From Leifsonia sp. 466MF (GTDB taxonomy: Bacteria > Actinomycetota > Actinomycetes > Actinomycetales > Microbacteriaceae), in NCBI RefSeq assembly GCF_900100265.1, contig NZ_LT629696.1:2604001-2668000 (forward strand): a DNA stretch of 64,000 nucleotides. The letters run 5' to 3'. Made by a program: the position numbers and the translations under genes. The notes beneath the pieces were generated by a model, which was not told where the DNA came from, made no database searches, and saw only the letters and a program-made list of their open reading frames with translations. Positions 13,056 to 16,989 of the stretch are shown one piece after another; the first letter of the stretch is position 1, and each line of letters opens with the position of its first letter.

Positions 13056-14114
13056 TCACGGTGCGACTCCGTTCACGGTCAGGCCCGCGGTCTCGTCGAG
13101 TCCGAGGGCGATGTTGACGGATTGGATGGCCGCTCCGGCCGTCCCCTTGTACAGATTGTCGATCGCGAGCACGGTCACGACCCGGCCCGCTGCGGCATCC
13201 AGCGCCACTCCGATCAGCACGGTGTTCGCTCCGAGCACGTCGGAGGTGCGCGGCACCACGCCTGCCGGCAGCACCTGCACGAACGGCTCCCCGGCGTACG
13301 CCTCCTCCCACGCGGCCTGGACCTGGGCGGCGGTGACGCCGGGCTTCACCCGCGCGGTCGAGGTCGCGAGGATCCCGCGTGACATCGGCACCAGCACCGG
13401 CGTGAACGACAGCGTCGGCGATCCGGCGCCCGCCTTCCGCAGGTTCTGCTGGATCTCGGGGATGTGCCTGTGCGTTCCGCCCACCGCATACGGGTTGGCG
13501 GAGCCGAGAATCTCGCTGGCCAGATACATCGTCTTCAGCGACTTGCCCGCGCCCGACGGGCCGACCGCGAGAACCGCCACGATGTCCTCGTCATCGATCA
13601 GCCCGGCCTGGATGCCGGGAGCGAGGGCGAGAGAGACCGCGCTCGCGTTGCAGCCGGGAGCGGCGATCCGCCGTGCGCCGACGAGGTGGTCGCGCTGCTT
13701 GCCCGACACTGCGGCGCCACTGCCAACGGGCAGCTCCGGCACGCCGTACGCCCAGGCGCCGAAGTGCTCGCCGCCGTAGAACGCCGCCCAGTCGGCCGGG
13801 TCCTCCAGCCGGTGGTCGGCGCCGCAGTCGACCACGACCGTGTCGTCCGGCAGCTGCGCCGCGATCTCGCCGGACGTGCCATGCGGGAGCGCCAGGAAGA
13901 CGACGTCGTGCCCGCTGAGCGTCTCCGGGCTCGTCTCCTGCAGGGTGAGGTGCGCGAGCGAGCGCAGGTGCGGCTGGTGCGCGATCAGCGGATGGCCCGC
14001 ATTCTGGTGCGCGGTGACGGTGCGGACCTCGAAATCGGGGTGCCCGGCGAGGATGCGCAGCAGTTCACCGCCCGCGTATCCGGAAGCGCCTGCGACGGCG
14101 ACCGAGAAAGTCAT
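13056..14114 (-). CDS. argC: N-acetyl-gamma-glutamyl-phosphate reductase
   Basis: NADPH-dependent reduction of N-acetylglutamyl phosphate, first structural gene of the arginine operon. The 352-residue protein starts [20 protein letters not shown] (Rossmann motif) and has the catalytic cysteine in APGCNAS. The ATG at 14114 has AAGGA six bases upstream. The mRNA leader before it, about 175 bases, carries an arginine-rich ORF and competing hairpins, suggesting control of the whole operon here. Confidence 0.97.
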
Positions 14115-14155
14115 GCTTGTTCCTTGTTCGAGTGGACGACGGTTGTCTCGGCGAC

Positions 14156-14217
14156 GGCGGCGCCCACGTCGATCCACTGGTCAGGACCGCCCGGAACGCC
14201 GCCTAGCTTCGGCGGTC
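14156..14217 (-). promoter_or_regulatory. Competing hairpins between the arginine leader ORF and argC
   Basis: Read on the minus strand, the last leader codons contain GACCGCC (14217-14211), which can pair with GGCGGTC (14191-14185); its inner CCGCC can also pair with GGCGG just after the leader stop (14203-14199). The same post-stop block, GGCGGCG (14203-14197), can instead pair with CGCCGCC at 14162-14156. The pairings that use 14203-14197 exclude each other, so ribosome position on the Arg codons could choose the structure. No U-run follows, so a classical intrinsic terminator is not evident. The rest of the 331-base gap between pheT and argC holds the promoter and a tandem repeat. Confidence 0.55.
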
Positions 14218-14289
14218 GCGCAGGCGTCGGCGCATGGCGCGGGCGGCGAGAGCCGCACGCGTCGAAACGGTGCACCGGACGGAAAGCAT
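14203..14289 (-). CDS. Candidate arginine leader peptide (28 aa) upstream of argC
   Basis: An ORF of 28 codons from ATG 14289 to TAG 14205-14203. Nine codons are arginine; six fall in the last nine residues (RRRLRDRRS at the end, preceded by AM), and two of these are the uncommon CGA. The ATG is six bases after a TAGGGT -10-like box, so it would be translated from the first base of a leaderless mRNA. It is the only ORF between the apparent promoter and argC. Codon content, position ahead of an arginine operon and the adjoining competing hairpins all fit ribosome-mediated attenuation. No homologue comparison was possible. Confidence 0.6.
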   Translation of the reverse strand: MLSVRCTVSTRAALAARAMRRRLRDRRS

Positions 14290-14295
14290 GGGACA

Positions 14296-14322
14296 ACCCT
14301 AGCGCTCCTGCCCGGGCGGTCA
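14296..14322 (-). promoter_or_regulatory. Promoter of the argC operon
   Basis: TAGGGT at 14301-14296 is a TANNNT -10 box placed six bases before the leader ATG at 14289. TGGTGA, 18 bases upstream, is a plausible weak -35. Transcription from here would start at or next to the leader ATG. Confidence 0.55.
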
Positions 14323-14338
14323 CCAAATCCGGACCGGG

Positions 14339-14368
14339 ATGCACGCGACCGGTATGCACGCGACCGGT
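14339..14368 (-). repeat. Tandem 15-bp repeat upstream of the argC promoter (ARG-box candidate)
   Basis: The unit ATGCACGCGACCGGT occurs twice without a gap (14339-14353 and 14354-14368), about 50-80 bases before the inferred transcription start of the arginine operon. On the operon strand each unit ends with TGCAT, a core seen in some actinobacterial ArgR sites. The link to ArgR is inference. Confidence 0.45.
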
Positions 14369-14445
14369 CCGGGTCCGCGGCGAAGGGATGTGTCTCGCTG
14401 CGGTCCGGGACCGGTCGGGTGTGTCGCGTCGGGATCGCGTGACGG

Positions 14446-16989
14446 CTACTCGCGGATCGTGGCGCCGAACAGCTCGCCGGCGCGCGCGGCTCCGGCCAGC
14501 TTGGCCTCGCTCGCCTCGGCGGCGGTGAGGGTGCGGTCGTCCGCGCGGAAGCGCAGAGCGAAGGTCAGGCTCTTGTGCCCGTCCGGGAGTCCTGGGCCGC
14601 GATAGTCGTCGACCAGCCGGATGTCTTCGAGCAGCTCACCGGCACCCGCGCGGACGGCGCGAAGCAGCTCTCCTGCCGGGACGTCCTCGCGCACGACGAG
14701 CGAGAGGTCCTGCGTCGCGGCCGGGAAGCCCGCGATGACACCGGCGACGATGTCGACCGGTGCAACGGCGATCAGAGCGTCGAGGTCGAGCTCGAACACG
14801 GCGACGACGCGTGGCAGGTCGAGGTCGTGGGCCAGGGCCGGGAGCAGCTCTCCGGCGTAGCCGACCGGGACCTCGGCTCCGTCGGCGCCGAGGGCGACCA
14901 GGCGCGCCGTGCGGCCCGGGTGCAGCGCCTGGTGAGATGACTGCACGAGGTCGACCGTCACGCCGACGGCTGCGGCGGTCTGCCGCACCATGTCGAGCGC
15001 ATCCACCAGTCCGGCCGGCACGGCGGTCAGGCCCGGCTGCTTCTCGACGGCGTTGCCGACGACGAGGCCCGCGAGGTGGCGCGGCTGCGCCGGGATGCCC
15101 GCGTTCAGCCCGGCGAGGATGTCGGCTCCGGGAAGCGCGGCGCCCGGCGGGAGCGTCTCGCTGCCGATCGACCCCTCCGAGGGGCGGAAGACGGTGCCCA
15201 GCTCGTAGACCTTGAGGTCGACGAGCCCGCGCGCGAGGTTGCGCTTGGCCGCATCCAGCAGGCCAGGCAGCAACGACGTGCGCAGGTACGGCGCGGTGGC
15301 GTCGAGCGCGTTCGCCAGCCGTACGGCGAGCACGCCGCCCGCCTCGGCGGAGCCGAAGAGGTCGTTCTGGGCCTCGCTCACGAACGGGAAGGACAGCACC
15401 TCGGTTGCGCCATTGTCGGCGAGCGTCTGCGCGACGGCGCGACGCAGGCGCTGCTCGCGCGTGAGCCCACGGCCGGGAGGCGCGACCGGCAGCACCGACG
15501 GGATGCGGTCGTAGCCGACGATGCGGGCGACCTCCTCCGCCAGATCGGACTTGTCGCGGAGGTCGGGTCGCCACGTCGGCGGCACGACCAGCAGGTCGTC
15601 GCCCGACTCGGTCACCGTCCCGCCGATCTCGGCGAGCGCTCCGCGCACCTCGTCGTCGGTGAAGTCGACGCCGATCAGCGAGGCGATGTACCCCTTCGGC
15701 AGGCGGATGGCCTCGGCGGTCTCCGAGGCGTCCAGCAGCGAGCCGAGGTCATCCGCGCGGCCGCCGGCGAGCTGCTCGAGCAGCTGGACGACGCGTGCCG
15801 CCGCGGCGACGGCGACCTGCGGGTCGACCCCGCGCTCGAAGCGCTTGGACGCCTCGCTGGGCAGCTTGTGACGGCGTGCCGTCCGCGCGATCGACACCGG
15901 GTCGAAGTTGGCGGCCTCGATGAGCACGTTGCGAGTGCCGTCGCCGATCTCGGTGGAGGCGCCGCCCATGACGCCCGCCAGGCCGATCGCGCCGGAGTCG
16001 TCGGAGATGACGAGGTCTTCCGGGTCGAGGGTGCGGGTCTGGTCGTCGAGGGTGACGAGCTTCTCCCCCGGCGTCGCGCGTCGCACGACGATGCCGCCGG
16101 ACAGCTTGTCGAGGTCGTAGCCGTGGATCGGCTGGCCGAGCTCGAGCATGACGTAGTTGGTGATGTCGACGATGAGCGAGATCGACCGGATGCCGGCGAG
16201 CTTGAGGCGCGCGATCATCCACGGCGGGGTTGGGCGGGACCCGTCGACGTCACGGACGACGCGGGTCACGAAGACGCTCGCGCCGACACGGCCGCGGATC
16301 GGCGCGGTGTCGTCGACCGTCACGCTGAAGCCGCTCGGGTGATCGGCCACGGAACCGACGGGCACCGCATCGGCCGGGTCGCGGAAGGCCGCGCCGGTCG
16401 CGTGCGAGTACTCGCGGGCGATGCCGCGGATCGAGAACGCGTACCCGCGGTCGGGCGTGACGTTGACCTCAACGGCAGCGTCGTCCAGCCCGAGGAGGGC
16501 AACGGCGTCCGTCCCCACCTCCGGGTCGAGACCGAGCGTCGACAGGCGGAGGATGCCGTCGTGGTCCTCACCGAGGCCGAGCTCGCGGGCCGAGGCGATC
16601 ATCCCGTCGGAGACGTGCCCGTAGGTCTTCCGCGCGGCGATCGGGAACGGACCGGGCAGCACGGCGCCGGGCAGGGTCACGACGACCTTGTCACCCTCGA
16701 AGAAGTTGCGGGCGCCGCAGACGATGCCGCGCACGTCGGCACCGCCGTCGGCGGCGCTCTGACCCTCGGGGGCGACGCGCACCTGGCACCAGCGGATGGT
16801 CTTGCCGTTGCTCTGCGGCTCCTCGACGAACTCGAGCACCTGGCCCACCACGATCGGGCCGCTCAGCTCGAAGGTGTGGATGTCCTCCTCCTCGAGTCCG
16901 ACGGACACGAGGGCGGCGTGCACCTCCTCCGGGGTCGTGCCGGGCTCCAGGTCGACGAACTCGCCGAGCCAACTCAGGGGGACGCGCAT
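14446..16989 (-). CDS. pheT: Phenylalanyl-tRNA synthetase beta chain
   Basis: Large subunit of the alpha2-beta2 PheRS. The 847-residue protein starts [17 protein letters not shown] and shows the EMAP-like tRNA-binding domain (about residues 40-155), B3/B4 editing domain, B5 domain, and a C-terminal ferredoxin-fold anticodon-binding domain (about 750-847). Length is normal for the family. The ATG overlaps the pheS stop (TGATG), so the two subunits are co-translated in fixed ratio. Confidence 0.98.
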   Translation of the reverse strand: MRVPLSWLGEFVDLEPGTTPEEVHAALVSVGLEEEDIHTFELSGPIVVGQVLEFVEEPQSNGKTIRWCQVRVAPEGQSAADGGADVRGIVCGARNFFEGDKVVVTLPGAVLPGPFPIAARKTYGHVSDGMIASARELGLGEDHDGILRLSTLGLDPEVGTDAVALLGLDDAAVEVNVTPDRGYAFSIRGIAREYSHATGAAFRDPADAVPVGSVADHPSGFSVTVDDTAPIRGRVGASVFVTRVVRDVDGSRPTPPWMIARLKLAGIRSISLIVDITNYVMLELGQPIHGYDLDKLSGGIVVRRATPGEKLVTLDDQTRTLDPEDLVISDDSGAIGLAGVMGGASTEIGDGTRNVLIEAANFDPVSIARTARRHKLPSEASKRFERGVDPQVAVAAAARVVQLLEQLAGGRADDLGSLLDASETAEAIRLPKGYIASLIGVDFTDDEVRGALAEIGGTVTESGDDLLVVPPTWRPDLRDKSDLAEEVARIVGYDRIPSVLPVAPPGRGLTREQRLRRAVAQTLADNGATEVLSFPFVSEAQNDLFGSAEAGGVLAVRLANALDATAPYLRTSLLPGLLDAAKRNLARGLVDLKVYELGTVFRPSEGSIGSETLPPGAALPGADILAGLNAGIPAQPRHLAGLVVGNAVEKQPGLTAVPAGLVDALDMVRQTAAAVGVTVDLVQSSHQALHPGRTARLVALGADGAEVPVGYAGELLPALAHDLDLPRVVAVFELDLDALIAVAPVDIVAGVIAGFPAATQDLSLVVREDVPAGELLRAVRAGAGELLEDIRLVDDYRGPGLPDGHKSLTFALRFRADDRTLTAAEASEAKLAGAARAGELFGATIRE

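Follow-up and report, generated by a model that had tools for sequence, protein, structure and literature searches.

How is the supply of arginine read at the arginine biosynthesis operon of Leifsonia sp. 466MF? Arginine biosynthesis is usually under the control of ArgR, which acts with ARG boxes on the same genes and in answer to the same signal in other Actinomycetes, and attenuators of the leader-peptide kind have been described for many amino acids. The operon lies in the window analysed here, a stretch of 64,000 nucleotides from a genome of 4.14 Mb in a single contig; the organism is a Leifsonia-type member of the Microbacteriaceae, and its ArgC has its nearest named matches in Leifsonia (91% to Leifsonia sp. 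C5G2 and L. virtsii, its own species being possibly outside the comparison). A first reading made from the letters of the DNA, hereafter the sequence-only reading, had placed a candidate ribosome-mediated attenuator before argC, and this proposal is supported by a conserved leader, a fixed CGA codon, a hairpin named S1 and the absence of ArgR. We conclude that the leader is under clear selection, that it is very probably translated, and that it most probably works as an arginine-responsive attenuator; we put at about three in four the probability that it is a ribosome-mediated attenuator of argCJBDFH reading the charging of arginyl-tRNA.

The argC leader in a family without ArgR

All features of the locus are on the minus strand, where pheT (ending at 14446) is followed by the leader ORF, by argC (13056-14114, start at 14114), the leading gene of the operon, and by argJ, argB, argD, argF and argH. 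The leader ORF (14203-14289) has 28 codons, encodes MLSVRCTVSTRAALAARAMRRRLRDRRS and ends in MRRRLRDRRS; counted from its codons, it holds nine Arg, six of them among the last nine residues and two of these CGA, as the sequence-only reading had stated. The same holds for its start, since the ATG indeed comes six bases after a -10-like TAGGGT (14296-14301). A -35-like TTGGTG (14321-14326), read from the sequence 19 bases upstream of the -10, is weak. Across 57 non-redundant representatives from 33 genera, to which 106 leaders were reduced (L046, L060, L061, L093, L100, L229 and L235 having been left out of this structure set), TANNNT lies 6 bases ahead of the leader ATG in 42 and 7 bases ahead in 13, and at the -35-like place T is the commonest base at two consecutive positions, again a weak signal. 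We infer that transcription starts at the leader ATG itself, so that the leader mRNA would be translated leaderless. A short ORF stands between a promoter, recognised by motif only, and the first structural gene, and its clustered codons for the amino acid that the operon makes are conserved in relatives. The peptide had no Pfam match at E up to 1.

The gap between pheT and the leader contains, at 14332-14421, a pair of 15-base repeats in tandem together with an inverted repeat of 27 bases (85%), perhaps the end of the pheST transcript. In another genome of the genus (L016, 657-1306), about 15 copies of a 20-base stretch with the palindrome ATTCGTGACGAAT are placed between pheT and the argC leader, mostly at 40-base spacing; other members of the genus show one or few copies of this type of stretch.

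We also looked for ArgR in the family. With TIGR01529, a model that matched the controls E. coli, B. subtilis and C. glutamicum and all 63 genomes tried from other families (48 above the curated cut-off), none of the 131 Microbacteriaceae genomes (76 + 55), this one included, gave a match; PF02863 gave none in 30 genomes, nor in this genome. What had been noted as a lack of argR nearby thus extends to the whole genome, and this makes it plausible that the leader is the main arginine sensor. The known system of ArgR with ARG boxes differs accordingly from the leader in being a DNA-binding protein, which the Microbacteriaceae miss.

The leader was counted by a fixed rule (TANNNT, 6-8 bases, ATG or GTG, 8-45 codons with at least 4 Arg and a group of four inside a span of ten residues). 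The conserved run of Arg codons in close relatives, on which the sequence-only reading had made its case depend, is present: the leader was found in 28/28 genomes of the genus and, over the family, in 121/166 genomes belonging to 42 of 80 genera. Of the 107 family genomes first taken from other genera, 83 carry the leader by rule and 85 after adding two by hand (L064, L090); they came from the best-scoring matches, so this sample leaned to close relatives. A later sample, one genome for each of the 31 remaining genera, gave 8/31 and reduced the spread that we claim for the leader from most genera to about half of them (34/49 genera in the first sample and 8/31 in the later one, with 38/80 lacking it). 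Outside these counts are L099, L418 and L428, where no ArgC start was recognised, the fragment G194, 14 genomes in which nothing matched ArgC and further species of genera already sampled; L028 is also a fragment, its genome being represented by L029, the pair L095 and L096 are duplicates, and L112, L191 and L200, from other families, were not anchored.

Could such an ORF arise by chance, considering that CGN codons are common in GC-rich DNA? The rule was satisfied by only 14 of 2700 first-order Markov resamplings of the family upstream regions, and by none of 105 genomes from 37 other families of the same class; 22 family genomes have no such leader upstream of argG, and one codon of the leader is constant (see below), all of which speak against chance and leave it hardly credible. 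The argG gene itself, as seen at G000:C1:272091-273311 (L267) and in L251-L272, is of two sorts in the family: one with a MAERVVL-like start, a few kb from argC, and one with an MSKVL-like start, located elsewhere in the genome with a leaderless-looking start, which is the type of this genome.

With a slightly looser ORF rule applied to named records, the leader appeared in all 12 Leifsonia loci and in Plantibacter, Gryllotalpicola, Pseudolysinimonas and one MAG labelled Frigoribacterium, and in none of six Cryobacterium, two Frigoribacterium isolates and the Curtobacterium records. One Clostridia record (L352) also matched, by chance as we think.

Among the 45 family genomes without leader, 33 (17/22 + 16/23) have a leaderless-looking argC, with TANNNT 5-9 bases before the start, and 12 have neither leader nor this motif, several of these with argC only a few bases from the pheT stop. 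In six Microbacteriaceae (L414, L421, L423, L426, L427 and L430) argC begins a few bases from the apparent pheT stop and may for this reason be cotranscribed with pheST. Some leader-free genomes, for example G058, G317, G041 and G074, lack both ArgR and the leaderless argC motif. About half of the sampled genera have neither ArgR nor leader; as leader-free genera are without ArgR too, the loss of ArgR would have come before the leader reached its present distribution, or have no connection with it.

A TANNNT 5-9 bases ahead of argC is also frequent where the leader exists, as it was found in 72 of the 83 further family genomes with a rule-found ORF and in 4/28 within the genus. Mostly it reads TAAGGT and overlaps the ribosome-binding site, and in this genome the site is ACAAGGAACAAGC, which does not fit TANNNT. 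A second, leaderless start of argC, to judge from this motif, is thus possible in many relatives. In this genome a Shine-Dalgarno-like AAGGAA (14120-14125) precedes argC. AAGG stands before argC in 110/113 family genomes with leader vs 6/22 without (first sample), and because it is kept together with the leader, a ribosome-binding role is favoured for it where the leader exists.

Arginine codons and the CGA ahead of S1a

The position of the codons was read relative to S1a (segment 2, GGCGGCGTT, 14195-14203), the strand of S1 whose first base in this genome is the G of the TAG stop. A first Arg cluster, CGC CGA CGC (14224-14232), occupies codons -9 to -7, and a second one, CGC CGA (14209-14214), ends with the CGA of codon -2 (14211-14209). 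In the representatives the peptide has a length of 18-42 residues and its N-terminal part is free to vary. By sequence, a nascent-chain arrest peptide does not fit, as a conserved peptide in the exit tunnel would be expected of it.

Codon -2 is the feature that varies least. It specifies Arg in 57/57 representatives and is CGA in 56; of all 106 leaders, 104 have CGA there and the other 2, which belong to a single genus, have CGT, and in the eight later genera, which had been held out, it is CGA in 8/8. Altogether CGA is kept at this place in 41 of the 42 leader-bearing genera. Codons -9, -8 and -7 are less constant, with Arg in 43, 38 and 38 of the 57. CGA is rare elsewhere: in the argC genes of 23 representatives it accounts for 13 of 331 Arg codons, and six genes of the window use it for 2 of 157.

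The choice of synonymous codons also differs from that in argC. The 444 leader Arg codons comprise 213 CGC, 112 CGA, 92 CGT and 27 CGG; CGC, CGA and CGT together account for 417/444 in the leader vs 210/331 in argC, and AGA/AGG for 0/444 vs 19/331. This genome has 45 tRNAs, among them one tRNA-Arg each with anticodon ACG, CCG, TCT and CCT, and tRNA-Arg(ACG) decodes CGC, CGT and CGA through inosine.

S1a starts at the G of a TAG stop in 38/57; in the other representatives TCG, TGG, CAG, GAG or GGG replaces the stop and the ORF continues, often as -SATP-. In L080, L237 and L088 we placed S1a by hand; leaders with an ORF passing S1a were at first required to be in codon phase, and the analysis was then repeated without the phase rule. 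With no phase imposed, 28 of the 30 leaders with an ORF extending beyond S1a have their last GGCG at one and the same codon position (third base), the exceptions being L097, out of phase, and L060, without GGCG. The spacing from the Arg codons to S1a is therefore kept where the stop has moved, which we take as the strongest sign that the position of the ribosome against S1a matters.

Leader RNA pairings and the proposed switch

The sequence-only reading had described two exclusive pairings of the block 14203-14197 (GGCGGCG), either back to the Arg codons (CCGCC over the stop) or forward to CGCCGCC (14162-14156). Both can form in this genome, and the forward one lies within S1, in which S1a and S1b (segment 3, GGCGCCGCC, 14156-14164) make 9/9 pairs. 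Across genera the competition stood in part: the forward pairing is kept, while the backward one is present in Leifsonia and some others and absent in leaders ending ERR. As those leaders have no complementary CGCC, the pairing of Arg codons with S1a was rejected as the universal alternative; its permutation score is z -2.9 vs -1.4 for the reversed control. The sequence-only reading had also overlooked that the Arg codons can pair with a stretch just upstream of the ribosome-binding site of argC. This stretch, segment 4 (14128-14141), is pairable either with the Arg codons at 14227-14214 or with segment 3.

S1 is supported over the family. S1a reads GGCGACG, GGCGGCG and variants; a first search for S1b was anchored on [CT]GCC at 33-50 bases from argC, and when repeated without any position limit the best partner of S1a still ended 34-47 bases before argC in 54/57. 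Its z score vs mononucleotide shuffles is -3.34 in the mean and below -2 in 48/57, and the hairpin inside S1 varies in sequence (mean z -1.50). The compensatory change for which the sequence-only reading had proposed a test turned out modest in S1: with kinship uncorrected, the five outer pairs are formed in 218/285 cells vs 209.3 (sd 3.5) with swapped partners, a value reached by 64/5000 permutations. Slid partners gave 58-164 cells, and position 5 is an A-C mismatch in 18/57.

Permutations of partners, also with kinship uncorrected, gave z -5.7 vs swapped partners when segment 4 was paired to the Arg codons (reversed controls -2.8 and -2.9) and z -3.9 for segment 3 with segment 4 (controls -2.2 and -2.5), and values of -1.3 to +1.5 for five unrelated segment pairs. 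The stability of segment 3 with 4 over the family does not exceed that of shuffles (z -0.25). In this genome the free fold of 14289-14100 combines the backward pairing of the Arg codons and S1a with segment 3 paired to 4, which is the textbook arrangement, and folds starting near the hairpin strand adopt the forward pairing; the whole leader of the window is only mildly above shuffles in stability (z -1.14, with 25/200 shuffles as stable). By eye, a candidate H-type pseudoknot can be drawn in Leifsonia and some genera between GUGGG before S1b and UCCAC before the ribosome-binding site.

A riboswitch, a protein-binding hairpin or another structured RNA that works independently of translation would account for the strength of S1. 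It would leave unexplained that frame-locked Arg codons, the choice of CGA and the leaderless start are kept despite the drift of the RNA sequence, and a search of Rfam, T-box included, found no family fitting 13500-15000 (two sub-threshold microRNA models only). We regard such an RNA as very improbable.

We compared by computation the states that a ribosome on the leader would impose. Results showed that segment 4 is unpaired at 0.58 with the Arg codons occupied and S1a free, vs 0.49 in the free RNA, 0.50 when a terminating ribosome masks S1a and 0.50 when S1a is shuffled; counting differences of more than 0.1 from the masked state, it is more open in 22 representatives and less open in 3. 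Opening segment 4 costs 5.12 kcal/mol with the ribosome at codon -7, vs 6.30 in the free RNA, 6.15 at CGA(-2) and 6.02 at the stop. The ribosome-binding site stays nearly constant (0.45 with the Arg codons occupied vs 0.42 and 0.42). On this computation the position of the ribosome would shift the pairing of segment 4, for which segment 3 is a weakly supported partner, and not that of the ribosome-binding site; a simple sequestration of the Shine-Dalgarno sequence was not supported as a rule for the family, considering how little the site changes between states.

The following direction of the switch is plausible. When charged tRNA-Arg is scarce, the ribosome would stall on the first Arg cluster, leaving S1a free to pair with S1b; with S1 formed and the Arg codons occupied, segment 4 could pair with neither the Arg codons nor S1b, and argC would be expressed. 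When arginine is plentiful, the ribosome would reach the fixed CGA and the stop, cover S1a and then leave, after which the stretch before the ribosome-binding site would become paired and expression would fall. What can be seen directly is the -10-like box six bases before the ATG, the frame-locked Arg array, S1 starting from the stop codon and the absence of ArgR.

On the contrary, it is the masked state, supposed to be OFF, that leaves the start codon of argC most open (0.68 vs 0.58 and 0.48), and this speaks against the polarity chosen. The same sensor might work with the opposite geometry: a starved ribosome would stall at CGA(-2) and mask both S1a and the Arg codons, turning expression ON, and OFF would be the ribosome-free RNA, closed by S1 and by the pairing of the Arg codons to segment 4, as in erm-type leaders. 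Codon -2 being the most constant feature would agree with this, as would the cost of opening the initiation region, 12.1 kcal/mol in the free RNA, which any ribosome bound on the Arg codons or stop lowers (to 10.7-11.0). That this cost is alike in all ribosome-bound states counts against the preferred model. A starved ribosome would nonetheless meet several Arg codons ahead of CGA(-2), and a ribosome at that codon does not open segment 4 (the 6.15 above vs 6.30 free and 5.12 at codon -7). We therefore hold the opposite geometry to be unlikely.

What would the switch act upon? The sequence-only reading had seen no U-run, in agreement with our search, which found no intrinsic terminator of a classical transcription attenuator and not one terminator-like site in 14050-14450. 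As no terminator was found, the output is probably translational or Rho-dependent; most likely it is the translation of argC, with Rho possibly acting on untranslated RNA. An attenuation in which the leader ribosome decides Rho termination would have as its place the C-rich, G-poor stretch from S1b to the ribosome-binding site (42% C and 18% G in the 57 representatives). The lack of an intrinsic terminator fits it, and so does the Salmonella speF leader, where, in the available text of that study, an Arg-codon leader is coupled with Rho (PMC6386406). A rut site is however not recognisable by sequence, and the preferred model, with its stall on the first Arg cluster, has this stretch open when expression is on, the wrong way round for Rho. 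Rho-dependent attenuation is for us a doubtful account of the leader, with perhaps a small minority of the odds.

Known designs and the meaning of the leader

The leader shares features with several known systems. Polycysteine short ORFs of mycobacteria, reportedly described by Canestrari et al. in 2020, are said to be likewise leaderless, with cognate codons near their end, before a biosynthetic operon and with no clear terminator; those concern cysteine and another family, while here a hairpin strand lies at the stop and one codon is fixed as CGA. For argL, a name for an arginine leader, no paper was found among open-licence PubMed Central papers, and the accessible part of PMC7815308 has no mention of it.

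The nearest known design is the LEU element of leuA. In the accessible text of the 2005 survey of actinobacterial amino-acid RNA elements (Seliverstov et al., PMC1262725), which lists no conserved RNA structure before arginine operons, this element has, like the argC leader, a leader ORF with a run of cognate codons, no terminator, and a base stem from the codon run to the ribosome-binding region of the next gene around inner helices. Unlike the argC leader, the LEU element concerns leucine and leuA, has a base stem reaching the Shine-Dalgarno box itself and has a pseudoknot as its inner part (PMC1262725). Membership of the argC leader in the LEU element was rejected, considering that Arg codons before argC, and not leucine codons before leuA, are found here; only the design is similar.

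Arg codons of a short upstream ORF sense the arginine supply in the Salmonella speF leader orf34 (PMC6386406), and Arg codons do so in the Staphylococcus aureus rbf leader rbfL (PMC13009471). According to the accessible portions of these papers, they control polyamine synthesis and a biofilm regulator, unlike the argC leader, which precedes arginine biosynthesis; each has a Shine-Dalgarno site and is not leaderless, both are from other phyla, and rbfL represses on arginine shortage (PMC6386406, PMC13009471). Our searches of open-licence PubMed Central papers brought up no Arg-codon attenuator that controls the biosynthesis of arginine itself, which leaves standing, within this literature, the suggestion that an arginine leader may be new.

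In conclusion, a family without ArgR that carries a conserved Arg-codon leader in about half of its sampled genera looks like a case in which a DNA-binding repressor was exchanged for a sensor of tRNA charging. We incline slightly towards the full form of this reading, to which the later sample made us give lower odds, in which ArgR was lost and around half of the sampled genera use instead a leaderless Arg-codon switch with a near-invariant slow CGA two codons before the hairpin. An arginine biosynthesis operon would then, for the first time, be seen to have an attenuator built on arginine codons. It raises two testable questions: how leaderless translation would drive attenuation with no terminator, and why a single rare CGA is held across 41/42 leader genera. 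Moreover, the distribution of the leader predicts which Microbacteriaceae would be without arginine control at argC.
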